From positions 1 through 54,358 of the forward strand of contig MWCR01000010.1 in the NCBI GenBank assembly GCA_002070095.1: 54,358 nt of DNA. Reading direction: 5' to 3'. This document shows positions 29,740 to 52,427 of this stretch, in pieces. The stretch comes from Parcubacteria group bacterium ADurb.Bin192. Its GTDB lineage: Bacteria; Patescibacteriota; Patescibacteriia; 2-12-FULL-60-25. The stretch's first letter is position 1; each line of letters begins with the position of its first letter. A program made the translations under genes and the position numbers. The notes below the pieces were generated by a model, which worked only from the letters and a program-made list of their open reading frames with translations, made no database searches and was not told the origin of the DNA.

Positions 29740-30245
29740 CTACAATGACGGCGGACCGACGTCCATAACGTCATACATTCACTAAACATGTAGCACGTAG
29801 CATGTAACAAACAACCCCAACGTCCCGCATCCTACGTCAAAACCAACATTGTCATTGCGAGGAGCGAGTCCGACGAGTGCCACGGCACGGCGTTCGCGAA
29901 CTCCGTGCCGTAGCAATCTCGCTTATTGGCTAGTCGTCTAAGCAGATTGCCACGTCATGATTACATTCCTCGCAATGACACGATTGTTGACTCGTCATCC
30001 TGAATTCAATTCAGGATCTAACGACTAAATTATTGAAGCGATATCCGTGTCATTGCGAACGAGTCCACAGTAATAATCAATTGATCATATTGGATTCCTG
30101 CCTTCCCACTTCGCTAACCCAACTTCGCATAAAGCTTCGATGGATTCAGCTGCTAGGGACAGGCCGCAGGAATGACAGGGTTGACAGGATGTTGAATTAT
30201 AATACCTCAATTGGTGATTGAATTTTGGTTATTGGTTATTATTTA
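29740..30245. repeat. repeat block upstream of ruvB
   Basis: No gene. ATGTAGCACGTAGCATGTAA repeat (29787-29810), a full GTCATTGCGAG palindromic element with inner GGCGTTCGCGAACTCC (29851-29979), TCATCCTGAATTCAATTCAG (29996-30020), the second 87-bp repeat (30091-30177) and AT-rich tandem words. Confidence 0.7.
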
Positions 30246-39897: not shown

Positions 39898-40190
39898 ATT
39901 TTCATGTAGCATGTAACATGTAACATATAGCATGTAACAACGTACCAAGTACCTAGCGCTCTTAACGTCCTAATTCACAAAACATAAAACACACAGCATA
40001 TAACAACGTCCCACGGGGTGTCGTTCGCGAACGACTACCCCAAGTCAAAACCAACATTGTCATTGCGAGCGAGTCCGACGAGCGCGGCAATCTCGCTTAT
40101 AAGCCTGTCGTCTAAGCAGATTGCCACGGTACGGCGTTCGCGAAAGCCGTGCCACGTCACTCGTCGGACTCATTCCTCGCAATGACAAGA
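39898..40190. repeat. repeat block
   Basis: No gene. ATGTAGCATGTAACATGTAA repeats (39903-39940, 39978-40000), the GTCGTTCGCGAACGAC palindrome (about 40018-40035) and a GTCATTGCGAG palindromic element (40059-40186) with an inner GGCGTTCGCGAAAGCC hairpin. Confidence 0.7.
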
Positions 40191-40588: not shown

Positions 40589-41170
40589 CTAGCGGATCAC
40601 GGCGTGGTCGCGCCAGAATTCGACACTCCGCATGTACGCGTCGCGGTCGAGCGTGACGCCGGACCCGCCTTCCTCGACGCCGAGAGCGTTCCTCACCATG
40701 GTCGCCGGGGGCATGGGCGACTCCTCGGGCCGGAGCTCAGCGTTGATCGCCACGATACCCCAGTCCGCATCCGGGACGTCTCGGTCGGCCTCGGGCTTGC
40801 CCTCGGCCTCCTTCTCCAACTGCTCCTTCGAGTAGAGGATCAAGTCGAGGTACTCGGCCCTCGGAGCCTCGAGACCTTCGAACCAACGCTGGAGGACGGG
40901 CAGCTCCTCCGGGCGACGCGCCTCGTACCCGGAACGCAACAAGTGCTGATTCTCGGGCGTAATGCACGCGACCCCGGCCTTGGTCGGCGAGGCGTTACGA
41001 AGGAACAGATGCTTGCAGAACGGCGCGTAGCCGTCGACGAGCACCGCGCCCTCCGCGATGACCTTGTCCGCGAGGTCGACCAGCTCGGCCTCCGTCAACC
41101 CGAGCACCTTCGTGCCCTTGAACGACGACGTGAAGTGACGGCCCGCGAACTTCGTGATGGCAACGCTCAT
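40589..41170 (-). CDS. DUF3228-family protein
   Basis: 193 residues, the family's usual size. I recognise the DUF3228 pattern from ADKVIAEGAVLVDGYAPFCKH followed by LFLRNASPTKAG and the later VLQRWFEGLEAPRAEYLDLI and DADWGIVAINAEL stretches. Function is unknown; the protein is soluble. It is GC-rich with third-position bias unlike the flanking ferric-reductase gene. It is the most downstream gene of the minus-strand cluster that includes the vWA and MoxR genes. I see no perfect Shine-Dalgarno site directly before the ATG; GGCGAGGTCAGAAA is the nearest purine-rich stretch. A structured gene-free block lies upstream. Confidence 0.78.
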   Translation of the reverse strand: MSVAITKFAGRHFTSSFKGTKVLGLTEAELVDLADKVIAEGAVLVDGYAPFCKHLFLRNASPTKAGVACITPENQHLLRSGYEARRPEELPVLQRWFEGLEAPRAEYLDLILYSKEQLEKEAEGKPEADRDVPDADWGIVAINAELRPEESPMPPATMVRNALGVEEGGSGVTLDRDAYMRSVEFWRDHAVIR

Positions 41171-41249: not shown

Positions 41250-41510
41250 CGTTTGTATGCACTCGGTTCTTGATCCCGCAGCAAACACAAAACTTCTTCT
41301 TCCTGCATACTTCATGTTGTACGCGAGACGATTAGAACGTGCTACGAGCGTCGTTCTGCGCTTTGTGATTAGTGTGGGGCGGGGTCGTTTGAGTTGCATG
41401 CACGACCCCTTTGAGTGCCCGGTATCACGGCTTAGATTAACCACAAAGCCGCATTGTGGATCTCATCATTTTGGAAAGCGCTGAGTCGCTTTCTCTTGAT
41501 TTTTTTACCA
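41250..41510. ncRNA. structured intergenic block upstream of DUF3228 gene
   Basis: Contains a divergent copy of the recurring hairpin: GGGGTCG...CGACCCC followed by TTTGAGTGC (41391-41418). A GGATT...CCGTTTG...GCACTCGG stretch at about 41240-41275 resembles the AGCACTTCGCT element near the other genes. At about 41475-41510 GAAAGCG/CGCTTTC followed by TCTTGATTTTTTT is a plausible plus-strand terminator. The region 41511-41889 has more stems (CGCTTTAGCC with GGCTAAAGCG, about 41604-41649) and no supported gene. Confidence 0.45.
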
Positions 41511-41889
41511 GCCTGCGCTGGTGCCTCAAGTCCCGAAGTTTCGCGTGAGATGCGCGAAATTCAACAAGTCCATGCTCCGGGTTACGGGACTAGGTTGCCA
41601 ATACGCTTTAGCCAACCTTGTTTGCGCGTGCCGCTAATCGGCTAAAGCGCATTTAATTTAAGATCTGAATAGCCCGCGCTCATCAGATCCGAGACCGATG
41701 CCGGCTGTTTACCGGCTTATACTACTATCTGTGCAGGGGGGATCGGTCACTCCCTTACTGCCCAGGTTCCCGCTTTGGCGCGGTGGCCGGTGCCGGTCCA
41801 GACATGATGGCTAATCCGCTGAAACGGAAATTTTTACAACCCGCGGCCTCTAGCGCCCGCAGACAGCTGTCCACCATCCGGCAACAAGT

Positions 41890-42087
41890 TCAGCCTCCCG
41901 CAGAAGTACGAGGTGAACCACCCCCGGGCAGACAACAGCCTGCCAGCGCCGGTGCGTCGCTTTCACCGGTAAGCCTTTGGAGCGCGCGACTTTCGCTCCC
42001 CCAAGCGCCCGCCCATGCGAACCCTGGGATGCCGCCGTACTTTTTACCGCGCCCAACGGAGGCGCTATTTTCACTCGGTGGAATCAT
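41890..42087 (-). CDS. possible small GC-rich ORF, 65 aa
   Basis: Only modest support. An ideal Shine-Dalgarno context (GGAGGTGAATG then ATG) starts a 65-codon frame rich in Gly, Ala and Ser with Trp and a Cys pair (CC). It has no recognisable domain, and a second overlapping frame is equally open, so coding is uncertain. It lies in the gene-free, structured part of the 40-47 kb cluster between the DUF3228 gene and the 155-aa gene. The ribosome-binding site alone makes it worth listing. Confidence 0.35.
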   Translation of the reverse strand: MIPPSENSASVGRGKKYGGIPGFAWAGAWGSESRALQRLTGESDAPALAGCCLPGGGSPRTSAGG

Positions 42088-42098
42088 CATTCACCTCC

Positions 42099-42560
42099 TT
42101 TCCACCCTTTTTTTGCGAGTCTATATTTTTGACCCGCTGCAAGCAAGAGCGTTTGACCACGCTTTTACCCTGCCTGCGTGCCCCTTTTGGCGGGGCTCCT
42201 GGACTACTCTTTTAGCATGCTCCAGGTCCTTGCTCGCTTTTTCCCGGCCCACATGGCCACAAGGTTAACGACGGCTTAACGAGCTACCGACGGGAGTCTT
42301 TCTGTTGCCGGGCCTCCTACCATTCCCCTTTGACGGTTTCCGCTCAAGGCGGACCGCGTGCGCTCACCATGATTCTCTCCTTTCAGATGAGCCTCTGCAG
42401 ATTTACTGCAGACAATCGAAGCACTCATTGCTCCGACCCCGCATAGTCCCAGAGGGACGACGTGGGGTCGAAGGGCGAGATGTGCAATCTCACCAATTCG
42501 AGTACTTGTTATGCAGTCTTGCCCTCATTGGCCGCTTGCGCGTTTAACGTCGCACTGCAA
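42099..42560. ncRNA. structured intergenic block with recurring hairpin
   Basis: No credible long gene. Holds the TCGA-hairpin-TCGAGTAC element (42468-42505, stem GAGAT/ATCTC, loop TGTGCA), a nested CGACCCC/GGGGTCG with inner GTCCC/GGGAC stem (about 42436-42470), and GAAGCACTCATTGCTCCG (about 42419-42436) matching the AGC-loop-GCT element of the sister blocks. On the minus strand AAGGAGAGAATC precedes an ATG at 42371 that opens only an 8-codon frame. Confidence 0.45.
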
Positions 42561-42582
42561 TCTGCGACGGTCTGTTTGTTTT

Positions 42583-43050
42583 TTACCAGGGACAACGAGT
42601 CGTCTCGGTCCCCGGGATCGTGGGCTCGCTTCCCCAGACAAGGGCGTGCGAGTTCCAGAAAGGAAGGCTGTTCGCCGTTGCGTTCCGATCCCAGGGCTCG
42701 GGCTCGGAACGCCTTCCCACGAAGGCGGTAATGAGAACGTAACCGCCGAAATCCTCCGCCTTCTTGAGGATGACGACGACAGATGAACACGGCTCGGGGC
42801 GCCGATTTTTGACGAACCTGCTCAACCCGAACCGTTTGGGCCGTTTGGCGTAAACCACCGCGTCGTCCGGCCCGGTCGCGACGCAAGTGGTCTCGCCGAT
42901 GAGGCGACCGAAATCTACCTCATCGACGAGGAAATCTCTCCCCGCGGCATCTATGCGGCCGAGGGCCTCGGGGAGGAGGCCCTCGACGGCGGCGTGCAGG
43001 TGGGACTGGTGACGGTCCACCACCCGCTCGCCGTTCTTCAACTGCCACAT
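42583..43050 (-). CDS. hypothetical GC-rich protein, 155 aa
   Basis: Not recognised with confidence. The start at 43050 is set by GGAGGAATT before the ATG (MWQLKNGERVVDRHQ). The middle is acidic and Val-rich. The C-terminal third has a SSVVVILKKAEDFGGYVLIT strand pair followed by WDRNATANSLPFWNSHALVW, a pattern with conserved-looking His, Arg and Asn that recalls small BECR-type RNase domains; that is weak inference only. It lies between two structured blocks, in the same orientation as the vWA gene. Confidence 0.6.
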   Translation of the reverse strand: MWQLKNGERVVDRHQSHLHAAVEGLLPEALGRIDAAGRDFLVDEVDFGRLIGETTCVATGPDDAVVYAKRPKRFGLSRFVKNRRPEPCSSVVVILKKAEDFGGYVLITAFVGRRSEPEPWDRNATANSLPFWNSHALVWGSEPTIPGTETTRCPW

Positions 43051-43059
43051 AATTCCTCC

Positions 43060-43299
43060 ATTTGTGGCAGAGCAACCGGATTCGGTCCGGTTTCCGTCCT
43101 CAGCACTACGCTTCGGTCCCGACGCACGTCTGCTGACGCGAATCGGGATCGAAGGGTGAGGAGAACTGTGCAGGTTCTTGATCTCACCGTTCGAGTGCTG
43201 CGTCCGCCATAGCTTTATGCGTAGGCGGACATTTTGCCCATATCGCCGGGACCAGCTATCCAAGATTCAGGCCTTACTTGGACTGGCCGCTCTTTTTTT
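43060..43299. ncRNA. recurring structured element, copy upstream of the 155-aa gene
   Basis: Read left to right: GGTTTCCGTCCTCAGCACTACGC-type element with an AGC-ACTAC-GCT hairpin (about 43090-43125); TCGA-GGTGAG...CTCACC-TCGAGTGC (43149-43198); GTCCGCC/GGCGGAC around ATAGCTTTATGCGTA (43202-43230); GCCCATATCGCCGGGACCAG; CCAG-TCCAAG...CTTGGA-CTGG around ATTCAGGCCTTA (43252-43286); then TTTTTTT (43293-43299). The T-run after the last hairpin would terminate a plus-strand RNA. On the minus strand the same block is the leader of the 155-aa gene. Confidence 0.6.
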
Positions 43300-44721
43300 C
43301 TAGAACTTGTCGACACCCACGCCACCTGTTGACCGAGCAAAGTCAACGATGGACTTATTCTCGACCTCCATCGCGAACCCGTGCACTCGTGTGCCCGGAA
43401 TCTCGGCCTTTTTGAGGCTCGCGACAGAGGTGTCGTCATCGGTCAACACGACCACTTCGGGGCGGTACAGAGCCGCGCCCTTGGCGATCGCGTCCTCGAT
43501 GAACTTGTGGGCCTCACGGACGGCCGCGGCGATGTCGGTCCCACCGCCACTGAAATTACCTTGCGCGAACTTTTTTACCAGCTCTCGCGCTTCAGCTGGT
43601 GTTCCGGCGTGGTGTACCTTGGTCATCTTGGTGTCGAAGACACTCAAGTAGACTTCGGCGTCACCACTAAGCACGGCCTTCAACCGGTTCATGACGACAC
43701 CAGTGGCCTTCCAGTGCTTCTTGCCTGACATACTGCCGCTTCCGTCTACGAGTATGAAGATCGCTTGCTTGCGCACGACCCTCGTTACTCGCTCACGCAC
43801 CGGCAGTTGGTGCGTGACAGCCTGATACAAGAAGTAAGACGGATTCTGCTGCCGGGTGGCCCAGGCTGTCTTGGCCACTCTCGACAGCTCGCCGAGATGC
43901 GCGATCGGGCGTGTTCGGACTTCTTCGCCCGCTGGGTCCACTTCTTGCCTCTCCTGCTTGCGCACTTGAAGCTTGGTGAACTGATCCAGTTTGCGGGAGA
44001 TGTCCAACATTACCCGTTTATCGCTTCCGTCAACGAGATCTTCGGCCACCTTCAGGCGGTTAAGCCCTTGATGGCCCTGACGCTGTCCGTCCCGCTCGGA
44101 CTCGGACTCGATCTCATGGCTCTTCCCTTCCGGGTCCACCATGTCGAGCTCCTCGTCAGAGAGAGAGTCAACAGCGTCCATGGTCTCGTGGAGGGCTTCG
44201 GCAACTCCCTCCGGCCGCTCGTTGTCTACGAAGATGGGGAGCGGCTCTCCCCCACCCTCTGCGCCGCCACTCGATTCCCCGCCCTGCTTTTTGGACAGGA
44301 GCTTGAGACAGGCCATGGCCTGCTCCAGCGGGGAGTTCCCGGGGAAACGCGCGAGGTCCAGAGTCTGCAAAAAGTCGCAGACATTCTGGTGATACCTCAT
44401 CGCATCGTCCACCCGGGACGAGACAGCTTCCTGCCGGTTTTTCGTGCTCTTGCTGGTCTTCTTCCCATCCTTGCGGACGGTAATGGGCCAGTCTCCGCTC
44501 GAGTCGGGAGCCGGCAGCTTCTCCTCGACCCGCTGCGTCACCATGCCCCTGTAGGCAGACGGGGGGTTGACGCGCCCTCCCGCCGCCAGGTTTGTCATGT
44601 CAGCCACCAGGTCTGGGGCGAACTCCTTGAGGCTGACCGCCTGCGCTGCGGCTTTCATCTCATCCCGCGAGGGAGAGATGTAAGTCGCAGGAGGCGACGT
44701 GCGAAACGTGAATTGGCTCAC
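43300..44721 (-). CDS. von Willebrand factor A domain protein
   Basis: 473 residues. The C-terminal 155 residues are a vWA domain: MIDAS motif IFILVDGSGSMSGKKHW with D326-x-S-x-S, a GGTDIAAAV Thr and a VVLTDDDTS Asp. The N-terminal two thirds are charged and helical (RQEVDPAGEEVR, ESESERDGQRQGH). vWA proteins of this build pair with MoxR-type AAA ATPases, and one lies directly upstream on the same strand, so a chaperone or metal-insertion-like complex is likely. It starts at GTG 44721, 5 nt after GGAGG. It is GC-rich, and a large antisense frame over it is a compositional shadow. Confidence 0.87.
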   Translation of the reverse strand: MSQFTFRTSPPATYISPSRDEMKAAAQAVSLKEFAPDLVADMTNLAAGGRVNPPSAYRGMVTQRVEEKLPAPDSSGDWPITVRKDGKKTSKSTKNRQEAVSSRVDDAMRYHQNVCDFLQTLDLARFPGNSPLEQAMACLKLLSKKQGGESSGGAEGGGEPLPIFVDNERPEGVAEALHETMDAVDSLSDEELDMVDPEGKSHEIESESERDGQRQGHQGLNRLKVAEDLVDGSDKRVMLDISRKLDQFTKLQVRKQERQEVDPAGEEVRTRPIAHLGELSRVAKTAWATRQQNPSYFLYQAVTHQLPVRERVTRVVRKQAIFILVDGSGSMSGKKHWKATGVVMNRLKAVLSGDAEVYLSVFDTKMTKVHHAGTPAEARELVKKFAQGNFSGGGTDIAAAVREAHKFIEDAIAKGAALYRPEVVVLTDDDTSVASLKKAEIPGTRVHGFAMEVENKSIVDFARSTGGVGVDKF

Positions 44722-44739
44722 GTTCGCCTCCTTCCCCCT

Positions 44740-45020
44740 TGCGGGAGTCAGGATTACCGCTTCCGGCGGTACGGTTTCAGAGCACTTCGCTCCGACTTCT
44801 ATCCGTCATTGCGAGGAGTCTGACGACGAAGCAATCTACTGTAGATCGCCACGTCACTCGTCGGACTCGTTCCTCGCGATGACATGAATAAAAGTCGAAG
44901 GGCGAATGTGCGTTCGCCAATCGAGTGCCATCCACCTTCGCGTTAAGCTATGGTGGACCTTGGGCCCGTTTATCGTCCGGGATCAGACTATTCAGGTTCA
45001 TGCCTTCTCCTGAAATGGCG
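44740..45020. ncRNA. recurring structured element, copy upstream of the vWA gene
   Basis: Same order as the 43.1-43.3 kb copy: CGGTTTCAGAGCACTTCGCT with a GAGC-ACTTC-GCTC hairpin (about 44771-44795); an inserted GTCATTGCGAG repeat (44805-44883); TCGA-GGGCGA-ATGTGCG-TCGCC-TCGAGTGC (44895-44928); TCCACC/GGTGGA around TTCGCGTTAAGCTAT (44931-44957); GCCCGTTTATCGTCCGGGA; TTCAGG/CCTGAA around TTCATGCCTTCT (44991-45014). Stem sequences differ from the sister copy but still pair. Confidence 0.6.
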
Positions 45021-45098
45021 GCCAATTTTATCGGACTTTGGCAAACGTGAATTTCCATTTTTGTTTTACGAGGTCTTGGACTGACCTCAGCGGATTAG

Positions 45099-46179
45099 CT
45101 AGATCCGCGTGGCTTCGAGGGCGAGGCGCTGCGCCTCGACAGCCTTCTCGCTCGCCGAGTCGCGGATGCGCTTTCGGCGGTCGGTCAAGCCATCGGTGAC
45201 CTTGAGGCTGGCGGCCTCGTCACCGAAGGCCGTGAGGCTCTTCGCGCTCTGGAGCAGCTTGATCGGCGACGCCGCGCGTTTGGCGTCCTCGAAACCCGTG
45301 AGGATGGCAGCGAGCTTACACTCCGCTTCCACTACCCGAGCCTCGGCCGCCGCGCGCTCCATCGCCGCCTCCAGCTCCTTCTGGATTGTGTCGGCCAGCC
45401 CCTCGAGACCTGGCAGAAAGCGAAGGTCAGTTAGGTCCTGCTTCTCCACGTGATCGGAACCACGCATTACAGCGGCCGCTTGGCACACCTGCAACGCATG
45501 AACTGCCGTGCGAGGAGAAACAAAATTCCCATTGGCCGTCGCATTTGCCAAAATCTCTGCAAGGATCGCTTTAAACCCGTTCATCACGGGTCCCCCGAGC
45601 CGCGCAGCCACCTTCTCGAACATAGAGAGGTAGCTAGCTGCCGAGTAGTCTTTCCACTTCAGGTTGAGCTGCAGTGGGAACCTCTCGATCAGCGCCTGAG
45701 CCGAGGGTCCTAGCTCGGCAACTTCTGCCGACTCCTTGTTAGTCAGACAGATTATTACTTCTGTCCGCATCGGGAACCTCTGTGCCCCGTTACGCAGCTC
45801 CTTGGCGGTCAACACGTCTTTCAAAGCAAGCAAGACCGAAGCAGGAGCGTCGAACAGCTCCTCGAACACCGCTACGCGATGATTCAAGAAAGACTGTGCC
45901 GGGTAGTACTCAAGAATTTTTTCCTCCTCAAGCTTCCTGAAATTGAGGCCCCCAAACAGGCGAGCCTCGTCCATCCCTTCTCCAAAGAATTGGTAATAGG
46001 CCTCGTCGGAGTAACCGAGACCATCCAGTACTGCTTTCACCATCTCGGACTTGCCGTGGCCGCCAGGCCCGAAGATGATGATGTTCTTTTTCGCGGTGAA
46101 AGCGAGCGCCATAATACGCGCCACTTCATCGACAAAAAACGAACATGGCAGACAAGATGCTCAGAATCTGCTGGAACAT
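45099..46179 (-). CDS. MoxR-type AAA+ ATPase, apparent frameshift near the start
   Basis: The main frame (from 46124 at a GTG) encodes Walker A FGPGGHGKSEM, a Walker-B-like VAVFEELFDAP, and sensor TEVIICLTNKE. This is the MoxR/RavA layout, about 341 residues, with a helical C-terminal region. No ATG with a ribosome-binding site precedes this frame. Instead AAGAGG and an ATG at 46179 open a +1-offset frame (MFQQILSILSAMFVF) that would join smoothly to VDEVARIMALAF if one base were skipped in the A6/T6 run at 46134-46139. So the gene is either frameshifted, read by frameshifting, or carries a homopolymer sequencing error. It lies directly upstream of the vWA gene. Confidence 0.8.
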
Positions 46180-46194
46180 GACGCAAACCTCTTC

Positions 46195-46530
46195 GGCCGA
46201 TTGTTGGCCTCAGATTGGGCTTGCCCTGGGGAGGGGCAAGACGTTTTCGGACGTTCGTCCCTCTCCAAGAACAAGCTCTTGGTTTGGGTCCCCAATCACC
46301 TGACCATCAAGTCAGGATCAGGGGATCCAAATGAGTTTTGTGTCACTTCTCAATCCAGCCCTTTGACAAGAGCGGGATATTCGAAGCAGTGAACGCTGTG
46401 CATTGTTCACGTTTCGAGTGCGCCCTTGAGATCAAGGGCCGGCTCCACCTTCTAAGTTATCGTCCTCCGATCGGACTCGGGAGCCAGATTCTGACATCGC
46501 GCACTAGGGCGCTAGTCGAACCTGAGGCAT
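46195..46530. ncRNA. structured block upstream of the MoxR gene, partial copy
   Basis: Has the TCGA-GTGAAC-GCTGTGCATT-GTTCAC-TCGAGTGC element (46381-46421), followed by an 8-bp GCCCTTGA/TCAAGGGC hairpin in the position of the third element, then TTATCGTCC...CTCGGGAGCCAG resembling the linker of the sister copies. Between it and the gene lie further hairpins (CTTGCCC/GGGCAAG, about 46219-46239). No coding region is supported from 46180 to 46761; the right part holds GACGT-type repeats. Confidence 0.5.
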
Positions 46531-46761: not shown

Positions 46762-47571
46762 TTAGACCACGATGCACGGGCTATCACCACGTCGCTTTGT
46801 GATCTTGCAGACCTCTCGCGATTTCGGCGGTTGGGACTGCACGTGCGACTTTACGTTCGCCACTATCCGCCCACCGTTTTGCGCCACGAACTTCTTCGCC
46901 TTACGGTACGTCGAGAAGACGTCCGCAACCACGACCTCCTTTCCGTCCTTGAGCTTTCCATAAACCACACTGTAACGGTAGTAGCTATTCGCATCGCCGC
47001 GGAATGGAAGCTCTTCGTTGTCCTTGTAGTACTTAAGGATTTCGATAAGCTCCTCGATGGAAGCGACACTGCTAACGTCGTCGCTACCGCGAACGACGTC
47101 CTGAGGTGCGATCACTGAGTACCCTCCCCATTGCGACAACCAAACCTGGAGGTCGGTGCCGACGATGGAAAAGGTACGCAACGCTCGCTCGTGGTCGGCG
47201 AACGTCCCGGTCGAAACGATCTCGATGCCGTGGCGTGCGAGCTCGGCGGTGAGCTTGAGCTCGCGCTCCCTCTGGAGCCACTTTCTCGCTCTGAGGCGGT
47301 AGTGGCGCGCCTGGGCGAGGATGGGCTTAGCGTCACGGGCGGAGGGGTACTTGGCGAGAGCCTGCTCGAGCGCTCCCTCTTTCGAGGGGCCGAGCTCGCG
47401 GCCCCAGTCCCCGCCGACTGAGCCGTAAAACGACTCAATCTCGTTCTCATTCTTCTCTGCGTCGTCGAGGGTGCGAAACACCCTGACGATTCCCCTCCAA
47501 CCACAGAGAGTTGCGAGGGGGTGGCGGAAGTTTGCATTGGAGTAAAAGGTCTTTCCAATTGTGTAGAACAC
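46762..47571 (-). CDS. hypothetical GC-rich protein, 269 aa
   Basis: Not recognised. 269 residues, soluble, basic. The first 45 residues (YSNANFRHPLATLCGW) are compact; then a charged helical region (ARHYRLRARKWLQRERELKL), and in the second half a region with Tyr/Asp-rich strands (RGDANSYYRYSVVYGKLKDG) and a Lys-rich end. It starts at GTG 47571 after AAGAAAAAA. A hairpin ATGCGG...CCGCAT directly precedes the start. The codon style groups it with the vWA/MoxR/DUF3228 genes, of which it is the most upstream. Confidence 0.6.
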   Translation of the reverse strand: MFYTIGKTFYSNANFRHPLATLCGWRGIVRVFRTLDDAEKNENEIESFYGSVGGDWGRELGPSKEGALEQALAKYPSARDAKPILAQARHYRLRARKWLQRERELKLTAELARHGIEIVSTGTFADHERALRTFSIVGTDLQVWLSQWGGYSVIAPQDVVRGSDDVSSVASIEELIEILKYYKDNEELPFRGDANSYYRYSVVYGKLKDGKEVVVADVFSTYRKAKKFVAQNGGRIVANVKSHVQSQPPKSREVCKITKRRGDSPCIVV

Positions 47572-48990
47572 TTTTTTCTTATGCGGCGCTTCTTGGGCTT
47601 ACCGCATCTCCGTTATTTAAGCGCCATACTAACCATCCATCTACTGCACCATGCAGTATCTGTCCGGTTCGCACCGCGCTCGATCTAAAACAACAAACCT
47701 TGCCTGACGTTAAGTACGCTAGGTACGTTATGGACGTTAAGTACGCCAGGTAAGTTCCCTGCCTTAGATCGTCAATTGTCAAAGTTACATCACTCTCTAC
47801 CGAACCATTTCACATGCTGCCATCACACGATCACCCCCTCTCCTCCTCATCACATTCCCTGCTACATGTTATATGTTACAAGTTACATGAATGAATAAGG
47901 GTTGATCGCTTCCTTTGGGTAGTAGCGACTGCAGGACCTCTGTCTGGATTCCCGTTTTCACGGGAATGACAGGGGTCTGCGCACTCGATACTACTGGGCT
48001 TCTCTAGAACCCAGAGGGTGAAACACTTGTTTGCCGTTCCCTCCCCGCCGCATAAAGCTTTGGGGAGATCTTTGGTACGTCCCGTGTTCACCGAAGCCCC
48101 ACTTCGCGTAAAGCTGCGTGGGGAAGTTAGAGATGCGGCTCATTATCTTACGATGAGATCTCTCTCCGATGACCATTGATCATCACATCGTAAAACCGTG
48201 AGTATCGCCAGAAGATTCGTCCTGCGTCCTGCGTCCCGCGTCCTGCGTCCTACGTGGGACAACTGGGACGTGCGACGAGCGACGTTATAAGAAGTAAGGT
48301 ACTAAGGTGCGTTTATTCTTTCTCCCGTCGTCATCCTGAACTTGTTTCAGGATCTCCGGGCTTCAGAACAAGGATTCTGCAGAAGATGTTGTTTAAGCTT
48401 TTTGGGTCAGGCGGCGAATGTCAGCCGCTTTAAGTTGCATATTCACCCTTGGCTTAAAACTTGTTTATTTATCCGCCGGCCGGATGGGCGTTAGCCCGAT
48501 CAGCCAGTCAGTTACTCTCTCCTCTGCAAGATTCTCGTTCCGAAACAAAACAGCAGGTATCACAGCTCTCGTGTTTTGGAGAGAGCCGCAATACCTGCTG
48601 CTAAATATTTCTTTTGTGTTACATGCTACATGTTATATGTTACATGCTACATGTTACATGTTACATGTCTCGTCCTCCCCGGCTCTCTCCTTCCGAGTTG
48701 GACTGTTAATTTGTTGGTTGTAAAGTTCGCTTTTTGTTTCCGCCTGTTCTAGCTTTGTTAAACACAGTATAGCATACTTTGTAAATTATGTCAAGGGTTC
48801 ATAGTCAATATTTAGGCTTTTTAGCTTATTTTAGCCATTTTTATATATAATATTCTGTCATTTACAGTCTGGCAAATGTGTGATAATATACTCATGTAAC
48901 ATGTAGCACGTAACATATAACATTTATTTATTAAATAAATAAGCTAGATTAAGCCAAAAACTAAAAAGGGCTCAACCTAGCCAATATGTA
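47572..48990. other. gene-poor region with repeats and hairpins
   Basis: About 1.4 kb without a supported gene. Contents: GACGT-type words (47700-47755, 48225-48300); an ATGTTATATGTTACAAG repeat (47860-47888); GGATTCCCG...CGGGAATGAC (about 47947-47972); two hairpins with the GCATAAAGCT/GCGTAAAGCT loop (48041-48067, 48097-48123); TCATCCTGAACTTGTTTCAG (about 48331-48354); a 10-bp stem CAGCAGGTAT/ATACCTGCTG enclosing GCTCTC/GAGAGC (48551-48600); and long ATGTAACATGTAGCA tandems (48618-48668, 48894-48922). Confidence 0.6.
48551..48600. ncRNA. stable two-tier hairpin
   Basis: Perfect outer stem CAGCAGGTAT (48551-48560) with ATACCTGCTG (48591-48600), inner stem GCTCTC (48565-48570) with GAGAGC (48581-48586), loop GTGTTTTGGA. 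It lies in a gene-free region, with no T-run directly after. Strand and role unknown. Confidence 0.45.
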
Positions 48991-49016
48991 CCCACTTGCT
49001 ACATGCTACATGTTAT

Positions 49017-49811
49017 ATGCTACATGAACTCCACTACCCCATCCTCAAAGAGCTGGGTTTGACTGAAACCGAGGCTGTTATATATGAGGTGCTTTTGGAA
49101 CAAGGGCCCAAACCGGCCAAAGATCTGGTTATTCCTTCGGGTTTAAGCCGCGGCAACGTGTATAACGCGGTTACCGCCTTGGCCAAAAAGGGCTTGGCCA
49201 CGGAAAAACAGGGACAAAAAACCATTTTCGAGGCCGCCCCGCCCTCGCAGTTGGCCGTACTTTTGGATCGTGAACAAGCCAAGCTCAAACAAATCAGCAC
49301 TTCCTTTAAAAGCGTCCTGCCCCAGCTCTCGCAAGAATTTAGTTTTTCTACCGGCAAACCGGTTATCCAAATGTTCTCGGGCTTTGAAGGGGCGGAAAAG
49401 GCTATTATGGATACTTTGGAGTCAGGTCAAGAAATAATGACCTATTTGGATGTAGGCGCCATGCTGCCCGAAATATCCAAAATGAATGCCAAATATTTAA
49501 AACGCAGAATAGACAAGCAAATCAATAAACGCATCATCGTGGAAGACAGCCCGGCAGCCCGGCGCTTTTTCGCGGATCAGAACACTCCTTTTACTGAAGT
49601 CAGATTCATCCAAAACTTTCCCGGAGGCTTCCAAACATCCATGCAAATCTACGCCAACACAGTTTTGTATTTAACCATGAATCCGGACAATCAAATTTCA
49701 GTTATTATCCGCGATCAACATATTTTTGACATGCATAAAGCCCACTTTGATTATTTGTGGAACTACGCGGCCCGCCTGACCAATGAAGACGCGGGTTCAA
49801 AAGCCACATAA
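49017..49811 (+). CDS. TrmB-like transcriptional regulator
   Basis: About 264 residues. The N-terminal winged helix is clear: LKELGLTETEAVIYEVLLEQ, then AKDLVIPSGLSRGNVYNAVT, then LAKKGLATEKQGQKTIFEAA. This is the TrmB/sugar-specific regulator layout. The rest is an effector-like domain (IQMFSGFEGAEKAIMDTLES; RIIVEDSPAARRFFAD). The ligand is unknown. The first codons (MLH and the preceding ATG codons back to 48996) are part of an ATGCTACATGTTATATGCTA dispersed repeat, so both the promoter and the start are embedded in it. The 3' end overlaps the convergent 875-aa gene by 49 bp. Confidence 0.85.
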   Translation: MLHELHYPILKELGLTETEAVIYEVLLEQGPKPAKDLVIPSGLSRGNVYNAVTALAKKGLATEKQGQKTIFEAAPPSQLAVLLDREQAKLKQISTSFKSVLPQLSQEFSFSTGKPVIQMFSGFEGAEKAIMDTLESGQEIMTYLDVGAMLPEISKMNAKYLKRRIDKQINKRIIVEDSPAARRFFADQNTPFTEVRFIQNFPGGFQTSMQIYANTVLYLTMNPDNQISVIIRDQHIFDMHKAHFDYLWNYAARLTNEDAGSKAT

Positions 49812-52390
49812 CGGATATTGGGATCATGCGGGTCCGCCACATAACGCGTGCCCAGCATCCCCGAAGCGGTTTTTTGAGCTATTTCATTTAAAAATTTATC
49901 TTTCTCTGTTCTTAAATCATAACGCCTGACTTCGACCCCGCCCGGAGCCTGCCCGCCGGCCATGGCCATGATCTGATCTTTTTGCAAAGAACCGTTTCTC
50001 AATTTATATGTTGTCTGCGCGGCATCGTCACGGCGAATCAAGAGCCTCTTATGCCGGCCCATTTGTTTAGTTTTGGGATCCCGAACAGTGATTTCTTCCA
50101 CGCCCGTAATCACAAAGCCGAAGTTTTCCACGTAACTGGTCCCGGCCTGCACCTCGGGGAACACATCCGCGCAAATCACATGTTCTTTAGCCTCGCTGTC
50201 GATAGCATTGCGCATAACCGCTTCTCCGATAGCTGAACCGCGCATCAAAGGACTGACATTCAACGAACCCGCGTAAACCGCGTTCTCTCCCAAATCCGGC
50301 CGGTCATCAAAGCGCACGAAAGACACAACCTGATCTCCTTTACTGAGCAAGCTGAAACGGGAAGCTTGATTATCAGAATTCAGCTTGGACCGCAAACCGC
50401 CCGCCACAAAATCCGTGATACCGGGCAGGCTTTTTTCCTGCTGTTTCCAATTTTCCTTGGCAATCAACAGCATCTGACTTTTTTGCCGGTCATCAATGTC
50501 CGCGGGCGAAAAACTCCCAAAAGACAAATCCTTGATTTGCTCAAAATCCACCCGTTCCGAACCCTTGAAAGCTGTTTTGAAAATCCCGCCAAAAATCAAC
50601 ACATCCTGTTTGACAGCATCCAATTCATGCAAGACCTGACGCAATTTCAATCCCCGATCCTCCTCCCCGGCGTTTGAAATATTTTCAAAAAAATCCACCA
50701 TGACCCGGTTGGCTCTGCGCAAAAGTTCTGCTCTTAATTTGGCGGTTTGCTCATCATTCAATTCTTGCTTGGCCTGAAAAAATTCCCGGCTCACCTGATC
50801 ACCGGTTTTATAGGCGGTCTCAATAATTTCATCATGCTTGTCCAACAATTCGCCAAATAATAACGGACCCATCTTATCCGCCGCTTCCATAACCCTGTCC
50901 AAATTCCGGGATGACAAATTCAACAAAGCCCGCAAAGCTTTCAGCCCCCCATGTTTGCGAGCCAACTCCAAAACCTTTTGCCGATGTAAGTCACTCAAGT
51001 CCGTAAACTTTTCCACCACGAATTGTTGCTCTGACAAATTTAAAGCGTTCAATGAAATACCGGCTTGTTGCGCAAAATACTTTTTAAATTTTAATAATAT
51101 TTCAAAATTCTCCAACATGCCCAGTCTATGCTGATAATCTTCGATCGTTTCATCCGGCCGCCTGGGAACGGCTTCACCTGCTTGATAAGGAGTTACGGCC
51201 GTAACATCGGACCCGGCTCTAAACAAAATCTTATTTCTTCCACCGGAAATCCGTCTTAATCTTTCATCGTTCAAATTTACCAAAGTAAACGTGTGTGTCA
51301 GTCTTTGCTGGCCATCTGAATCAAGATAAGTGATTCCTCCCAAATTGGGTGTTAATTTATGCACCAAATAATCATCATTACAAAACTTTCTGCCTAAAGA
51401 GTACATAATGCCGTCCAACATAATATCGCCTGTTTGATAAACTTTCTTACCGCGCATTCTGGCATTCGTATCCAATTTTGAATACTGCCTAATATCGTTC
51501 GGCTCCAAAACATGGCGCGTAAAAATATTAGGCGCGTAATCTTCTATAAACACCAATGGCGAAATATGCATACCGACTTTTTCATCCGGCTTTGTTCTTG
51601 AGCCAGCATAACCGATACCCCTAAAAAACTGTGCTGAAAATCTGACATGCTTGCCTTTTTTATCTTTTACCATCAAGACCCCGCTTTCATCGCGATAACC
51701 ATCACCGTAATTCGGATGATAAATTAAAGCCGCTATAGCCACTTCATCCAAATTCAACTTTTCCTGATCGCAAGGATATTCTTTAACTTTATTTTTGAGA
51801 GAACCGTCAGCTTTAGGGTCAAATATTTCCCATAAACCCAAATAAAAATCACTCTGTTTGATAGCTTCGGGATCCAGCGCCTGATCAGAAGTTTCGGGCT
51901 TATAAAACAAAGGCTTAGGCGATTGACGTTTATTTTGCTGGTCTTCCTTGGACACAACTTTTATATCTTTAAATAACAAATACAAGGCATATCGCCGTCC
52001 TCGTTCTATATATGGTAAAAACGGCTGCCATTTTTTCTTTTGTGCATTAACCACCTGCCTTAAAGGCAATTCTTTTATAGCCGGCAAATCAACCACATAA
52101 AAATCCTTTTTCTTTTCGATGACGCCTTTTTGCTCCAAAGCCTGCAAAACCGCCTCTCTGTACTCTTCCACGGTTGCCATGTTTTCCATCACATTTTTGA
52201 CATCTTCCACACGCAAACCTTGAGGGCTTTGCATGGCCGCAGTCAAAGCTTCCACGCCGGGCTTGCCATACATGGCTTGAAAATCCGAAAAACCGCGCAG
52301 AATATTTTCCATTTTTTCCGCTTTGCTTTCAACCGGCTGTTCGGCAGAATCCCCGCGGCTCCCGGGCATGGCCATCATCTTTTTTGGCAT
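49763..52390 (-). CDS. large hypothetical protein with GNAT-like C-terminal domain
   Basis: 875 residues, soluble. Residues about 20-120 are helical and include a winged-helix-like LEQKGVIEKKKDFYVVDLPA. The middle (about 180-440) is beta-rich and Asp/Gly-rich; 430-620 is helical. The end (about 690-810) looks like an acetyltransferase: VVSFVRFDDRPDLGENAVYA, LNVSPLMRGSAIGEAVMRNA (acyl-CoA loop) and SYVENFGFVITGVEE. I do not recognise the rest. The start is 6 nt after TATAAT (52397-52402), so the two-Met-earlier start at 52408 is rejected. Confidence 0.7.
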   Translation of the reverse strand: MPKKMMAMPGSRGDSAEQPVESKAEKMENILRGFSDFQAMYGKPGVEALTAAMQSPQGLRVEDVKNVMENMATVEEYREAVLQALEQKGVIEKKKDFYVVDLPAIKELPLRQVVNAQKKKWQPFLPYIERGRRYALYLLFKDIKVVSKEDQQNKRQSPKPLFYKPETSDQALDPEAIKQSDFYLGLWEIFDPKADGSLKNKVKEYPCDQEKLNLDEVAIAALIYHPNYGDGYRDESGVLMVKDKKGKHVRFSAQFFRGIGYAGSRTKPDEKVGMHISPLVFIEDYAPNIFTRHVLEPNDIRQYSKLDTNARMRGKKVYQTGDIMLDGIMYSLGRKFCNDDYLVHKLTPNLGGITYLDSDGQQRLTHTFTLVNLNDERLRRISGGRNKILFRAGSDVTAVTPYQAGEAVPRRPDETIEDYQHRLGMLENFEILLKFKKYFAQQAGISLNALNLSEQQFVVEKFTDLSDLHRQKVLELARKHGGLKALRALLNLSSRNLDRVMEAADKMGPLLFGELLDKHDEIIETAYKTGDQVSREFFQAKQELNDEQTAKLRAELLRRANRVMVDFFENISNAGEEDRGLKLRQVLHELDAVKQDVLIFGGIFKTAFKGSERVDFEQIKDLSFGSFSPADIDDRQKSQMLLIAKENWKQQEKSLPGITDFVAGGLRSKLNSDNQASRFSLLSKGDQVVSFVRFDDRPDLGENAVYAGSLNVSPLMRGSAIGEAVMRNAIDSEAKEHVICADVFPEVQAGTSYVENFGFVITGVEEITVRDPKTKQMGRHKRLLIRRDDAAQTTYKLRNGSLQKDQIMAMAGGQAPGGVEVRRYDLRTEKDKFLNEIAQKTASGMLGTRYVADPHDPNIRYVAFEPASSLVRRAA

Positions 52391-52396
52391 GACTGT

Positions 52397-52402
52397 ATTA
52401 TA
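52397..52402 (-). promoter_or_regulatory. -10 box of the 875-aa gene, leaderless geometry
   Basis: The minus strand reads TATAAT, ACAGTC (6 nt), ATG at 52390. No Shine-Dalgarno site. Confidence 0.65.
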
Positions 52403-52427
52403 TCTCAAATGATGCTTGGACGGCCAA

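Follow-up and report, generated by a model that had tools for sequence, protein, structure and literature searches.

A structured cis RNA between the genes of a GC-rich MoxR–vWA island in Patescibacteria

Here, we describe a structured RNA element that recurs between the genes of a GC-rich island of Parcubacteria group bacterium ADurb.Bin192. The stretch of DNA analysed (the window; 54,358 nt, MWCR01000010.1) is an entire contig of a 1.44-Mb, 69-contig assembly, and the assemblies compared are metagenome bins. Four good copies of the element and a degenerate one lie in the window, all on the gene strand. The element is a structured cis RNA, as seen from compensatory stem changes across copies and genomes and from its constant gene-strand orientation, and it probably helps to cut up or control one long mRNA.

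Genes of the island and copies of the element

GC content rises from around 0.45 to 0.54–0.60 at roughly 40–48 kb of the window. The island genes lie on the minus strand: orf269 (46762–47571, family unknown), a MoxR-like AAA gene (45099–46181), a CoxE-like vWA gene (43300–44721), orf156 (42583–43050) and a DUF3228 gene (40589–41170; family match 6.1e-67). The MoxR–vWA gap spans 44722–45098 and the vWA–orf156 gap 43054–43299; at most other orthologous loci, MoxR and vWA are contiguous with no insert.

All element copies in the window, and the modules next to them, are read on the minus strand. Copy A (43111–43198, vWA–orf156 gap; 52.4 bits) consists of GCACUCGA, a P2 hairpin with a UGCACA loop, CUUCGAUCC, P3 and a third strand, s3, GGACCGAAG. 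Copy B (44790–44928; 35.3 bits) occupies the MoxR–vWA gap, and copy C (42431–42505; 36.6 bits) follows orf156, just before the micro-open reading frame (micro-ORF) MVSARGPP-stop. Copy D (46381–46421; 34.5 bits), upstream of the MoxR leader, comprises s1, P2 and s2 with no convincing s3. A degenerate relative upstream of DUF3228 (41391–41418) keeps GCACUC and a hairpin without the UCGA pairing, and was missed by our covariance model R1, which was built with a shortened calibration. Of the partial copies proposed in an earlier note on this DNA, those at 42419–42505 and 46381–46500 are genuine core copies, and only the third is degenerate.

Copies A and B are accompanied by further hairpins. An accessory hairpin lies directly 5′ of each (GTCCGCC/GGCGGAC at 43202–43230 and TCCACC/GGTGGA at 44931–44959), and upstream there is a module, F (43237–43283 for copy A, where a hairpin with loop AAGGCNUGAA is followed by CUGGUCCCGGCGAUAUGGGC; 44964–45016 for copy B). 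Module F, a hairpin with this loop followed by CUGRUCCCRGNCGAUAA..GGG, also accompanies copies e1, e2 and e3 of locus L029, and its stems vary among copies and still pair. The four pieces that the earlier note had seen in the same order in blocks 43060–43299 and 44740–45020 are present as described, with stems that differ and still pair (GGTGAG/CTCACC versus GGCGA/TCGCC; GTCCGCC/GGCGGAC versus TCCACC/GGTGGA; TCCAAG/CTTGGA versus TTCAGG/CCTGAA). The second block additionally holds a palindromic genomic repeat, resembling repetitive extragenic palindromes (REP) or miniature inverted-repeat transposable elements (MITE), at around 44806–44883. This repeat, 94.6% identical over 37 nt to 40151–40187 and with a second relative at 29850–29879, fills the P3 tip of copy B, and the s2:s3 base pairs at the helix base are retained. 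Either strand of both blocks folds 3.8–5.6 s.d. better than dinucleotide shuffles, so folding energy alone cannot choose the strand.

Core anatomy, strand and distribution

Read in the gene sense, the core is (A/U)GCACUCG[A/G] (s1), 1–4 nt, P2, YYCGAY (s2), P3 and s3, the last of RUCGGAG or RUCGAGG type. The P2 loop keeps GCAC(A) and the P3 tip is freely variable. The gene-sense reading therefore revises the earlier description of loop and strand: the conserved features are the loop GCAC(A) and the single strand GCACUCG. Almost every copy retains GCAC at both positions, and the stems change freely, with P2 outer stems as different as GGUGAG/CUCACC, GGCGAA/UUCGCC, ACCCAC/GUGGGU, CGUCCA/UGGACA, GGGAAA/UUUCCC, GGAUGA/UCAUCC and CGUGAA/UUCAC(U). 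The s1 UCGA stands opposite an s2 UCGA, and the four copies with s1 UCGG have s2 CCGA; the A/G of s1 agrees with the U/C of s2 in 15 of 15 copies.

The covariation expected of a functional RNA is borne out. In a hand-trimmed and hand-registered alignment of 13 copies (A11), which is biased toward the structure, 98.5% of the P2 and s1:s2 cells are paired, compared with 76.8% after shuffling, and 7 of 10 pairs show two-sided changes. The s2 strand has two alternative partners, s1 (4 bp) and s3 (around 9 bp), giving two mutually exclusive helices, both of which covary. The s2:s3 helix is paired in 93.2% of cells; because s3 was chosen as the best match, we tested it against shuffled downstream sequence, and its summed best pairing was 124 (mean 104 and maximum 113 in 1,000 shuffles), with only about half of the copies standing out when taken singly. 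A descriptor holding all core features recovered seven genuine copies and one antisense mirror in the island loci, versus 0–1 in ten local shuffles. In some copies, s3 forms a further hairpin with a strand s4 (UCGAAGC/GCUUCGA in e2; also wC, e4 and e1); this hairpin and P1 (AGCAC/GUGCU) were dropped as core helices, each being found in only part of the copies.

The third pair of the s2:s3 helix runs through the series U-A, U-G and C-G, and G-U pairs outnumber A-C pairs in this helix by 10 to 5, which favours the gene strand. This bears on a suggestion of the earlier note, that the copies could instead be small RNAs made from the plus strand, antisense to the leaders. A run of seven T residues at the plus-strand end of copy A speaks for such RNAs, but it is not conserved in the other copies, the plus strand offers only a poor promoter match and the copies are always oriented with the genes. 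This constant sense orientation disfavours the antisense reading, which we find scarcely credible.

In all, we count 15 copies in seven Patescibacteria genomes of at least two families. Same-genome copies are paralogs (two L029 cores are identical), so these copies represent fewer independent lineages. A genome from another genus of the same family (G021; JAVHLR010000001.1, locus L029) has a syntenic cluster with six copies, and the R1 search, of the kind proposed in the earlier note, found further ones in L032 (Uhrbacteria UBA10169, before vWA), G010, G354, G331 and G012, beside unrelated GC-rich genes, an outcome that the note had named as support. Neighbours of the copies include MoxR, vWA, orf156, DUF3228, an RGPP micro-ORF, a DEAH-type helicase (G010) and a MYG1 exonuclease (G331). 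Copies run with the adjacent genes in every case (window, L029, L032 and L066–L069). They lie between genes, usually in front of a GC-rich gene, rather than upstream of every gene as first claimed. In each genome, all significant copies found lie within a single island. Two borderline matches (L032 9097 and L066 8886) were left out of the count, and weak R1 matches in L062–L065 were rejected as chance-like; they do not display the core, and several fall in coding sequence. An exact-pattern scan of viral contigs gave 15 matches, 0 with stems. Separately, a stretch of small genes in L032 (6960–9640), one of them encoding a PIN domain, contains repeated hairpins, GCUCGCAACACAACANACGUUGCGCUUCGAC..GUCGGAGCAAUCCGAA, that resemble the s2:s3 part of the element.

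Such a distribution might also suggest a DNA element, that is, an attC-like recombination or cassette site or a transposable repeat between genes. Gene order varies from island to island, the L029 leaders e1 and e2 are nearly identical over around 150 nt, and the island occupies a recurrent site by TrmB and a GNAT-like gene. Like integron attC sites, the copies are palindromic, intergenic and located at a variable island; unlike them, they have constant orientation and RNA-type covariation (the U-A/U-G/C-G series), and GTTRRRY/RYYYAAC core sites in register are absent or scattered in the 15 copies, a negative test on which we rejected attC identity. REP and MITE repeats are likewise short palindromes between genes, and one sits inside copy B, but the element is not dispersed in the genome, being limited to one island, and its stems change without sequence identity, unlike those of a transposed repeat. 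We therefore regard a DNA element as highly improbable.

Hammerheads at the same positions and the proposed role

In an Rfam 15 scan of the window, only tRNAs reached the gathering threshold, and 41.2–46.8 kb yielded nothing meaningful at E ≤ 5, which agrees with the earlier note, whose author knew of no described RNA class with this set of parts. The hammerhead core CUGANGA...GAAA with three stems was not found in the window island, either at E ≤ 5 or by a stem-based scan. Orthologous MoxR–vWA islands carry type III hammerheads on the gene strand, as identified by the stem-based scan and Rfam RF00008. They lie in the MoxR–vWA and vWA–orf156 gaps of L030 (5796 and 7392) and in the MoxR–vWA gap of L040 (= L027; 4198), and elsewhere in or near the island in L033 (4077), L035 (8322), L042 (943) and L045 (11648). 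The L042 hammerhead scores 50.6 bits (Rfam gathering threshold, 48.5), and the remaining ones fall below that threshold, with E values of 8e-9 to 0.006. Between MoxR and vWA, L030 and L040 thus have a hammerhead where the window, L029 and L032 have the element; between vWA and orf156, L030 again has a hammerhead at the position that the element takes in the window. The two RNAs share gaps and strand, and in each, two hairpins surround a conserved core, with ORFs a short distance downstream; the element differs in having neither CUGANGA/GAAA nor the hammerhead junction. Neither this exchange, nor the switch-like exclusive helices, nor the copies after a last gene had been noticed in the earlier note, and among the papers searched none dealt with hammerheads or with other structured RNAs of Patescibacteria or the candidate phyla radiation (CPR).

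A sigma-70-like promoter, TTGACA-17-TATACT (48766–48794, minus strand), sits in the interval from TrmB to the island and is directed away from TrmB; it is a consensus match only, the best on the minus strand across 41.2–48.9 kb. A consensus scan of the minus strand from 48794 down to 41200 gave no other promoter- or terminator-like site. Because this promoter-like site is single, with none other downstream, the island genes would be transcribed as one long polycistronic RNA starting next to TrmB. Between its messages, the element may process or insulate each one, at positions where sister islands use type III hammerheads. We rank first, with a probability of about 0.42, a processing or insulating intercistronic mRNA element in the broad sense. 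Possible means are self-cleavage, a nuclease or protein site formed by the duplicated GCAC, and switching between s1:s2 and s2:s3. The first of these, in its specific form of a new self-cleaving ribozyme class that cuts the polycistronic RNA between genes and has replaced hammerheads at the same positions, we consider unlikely, giving it about half of the weight of the broad reading.

Several observations weigh against a processing role. The core carries no signature of any Rfam ribozyme, hammerheads included. G354 and G012 each have a copy after the final gene of the island, where there is no message to separate. That the element and hammerheads use the same gaps could stem from a general preference for structured leaders; hammerhead-like matches occur in 22 of 381 genomes of the class (0 of 14 control genomes), and since most of them lie in other contexts, outside these islands, the positional argument is somewhat weakened. 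Finally, two covarying exclusive helices are as compatible with regulation by switching as with processing.

Such a switch, an orphan riboswitch or attenuator in which s2 pairs with s1 or s3 and the state sets expression of the next gene, is a serious if doubtful competitor. Attenuators and riboswitch expression platforms share with the element mutually exclusive helices kept by covariation, and the s3:s4 hairpin of some copies would complete an attenuator-like 1:2, 2:3, 3:4 series. However, s4 is absent from several copies, no U-run follows s3:s4, no recognized terminator or pairing that buries the Shine–Dalgarno sequence was seen, and there is no large invariant ligand core. Unlike those systems, moreover, the element repeats at almost every island gene, and in two genomes copies stand after the last gene. 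The retention of GCAC in GCACUCG and in the P2 loop, while stems vary, would also be expected of a site for a GCAC-recognizing RNA-binding protein or small RNA. We found no candidate protein, and such a site leaves the covarying s1:s2 and s2:s3 pairs unexplained; we judge it quite unlikely.

Leader RNAs, micro-ORFs and wider setting

A second uncatalogued, covarying leader of around 130 nt, UGAUUCCUGGGUGAUUCGCGACCAACAAGAC..GGCGCUCAAACUC, lies just upstream of MoxR and is common to eleven loci, with two-sided changes in 20 of 29 predicted pairs. A model of this leader detected two loci outside its training set, L042 and L039, at E values of around 1e-20, bringing the leader to 13 clusters (L031, L033–L039, L041–L044 and L026; for example, L035 5128–5265). 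Among 381 genomes, it matched strongly only at G095 (E = 7.4e-33) and weakly at G005 (E = 0.005), and the scanned loci gave no gathering-level Rfam match. We consider this leader a second candidate RNA class, nearly confined to MoxR. In its place, the window (46184–46330, minus strand), L029, L030, L032 and L040 have a conserved alpha-form MoxR leader.

Micro-ORFs of the form M-x(0-5)-R-[GD]-P-P with a Shine–Dalgarno sequence (MVSARGPP-stop, at 42344–42370 on the minus strand of the window; MKNRDPP-stop; MDRGPP-stop) follow vWA or orf156, nearly all on the gene strand. Other sites are L029 9702, L030 7988 and 8546, L033 9492 and 9852, L035 7825, L041 9370 and 9827, L042 5960, L043 9356, and L027 1326 and 731. 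RGPP has been reported as the most stable RAPP-like ribosome-arrest motif (PMC12992588), and the micro-ORFs carry RGPP or RDPP as a putative arrest motif. Long, RNA-like noncoding stretches follow RGPP micro-ORFs in the window (41450–42340, minus strand), L029 (9750–10380) and L030 (8000–9240); they resemble each other between loci, and GGUUACAANGGUGC..AACCUCUAA occurs twice in L030.

As for the neighbouring genes, orf156 encodes a conserved protein of unknown family with a confident AlphaFold2 model (pLDDT 92), for which a structure search returned nothing meaningful from the PDB. A T run at around 46130 interrupts the MoxR frame close to its 5′ end, compatible alike with an assembly error, a frameshift or decay. 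In many genomes, a TrmB-like regulator, frequently accompanied by a large gene of GNAT-like type, borders the GC-rich island (48996–52408 in the window), and the contents of TrmB-flanked islands vary (L029, L033, L034, L036, L037, L041, L043, L045 and L066–L068), pointing to a recurrent site. Named relatives of the cluster are mostly Patescibacteria (Uhrbacteria, Kaiserbacteria, Doudnabacteria, Moraniibacteriota and others), and a search for vWA relatives in viral contigs, plasmids and phages found none.

It is rare to find a new class of structured RNA that is conserved across genomes. Gene-association searches have led to earlier ribozyme classes from context of the kind seen here, where the element and hammerheads exchange at the same gaps of orthologous operons. 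If the element self-cleaves, it would add a ribozyme class; if it switches, it would be an orphan regulator. In both cases, the element opens to testing the question of why Patescibacteria with minimal genomes retain islands rich in RNA and GC, with arrest-motif micro-ORFs, beside a MoxR–vWA pair.

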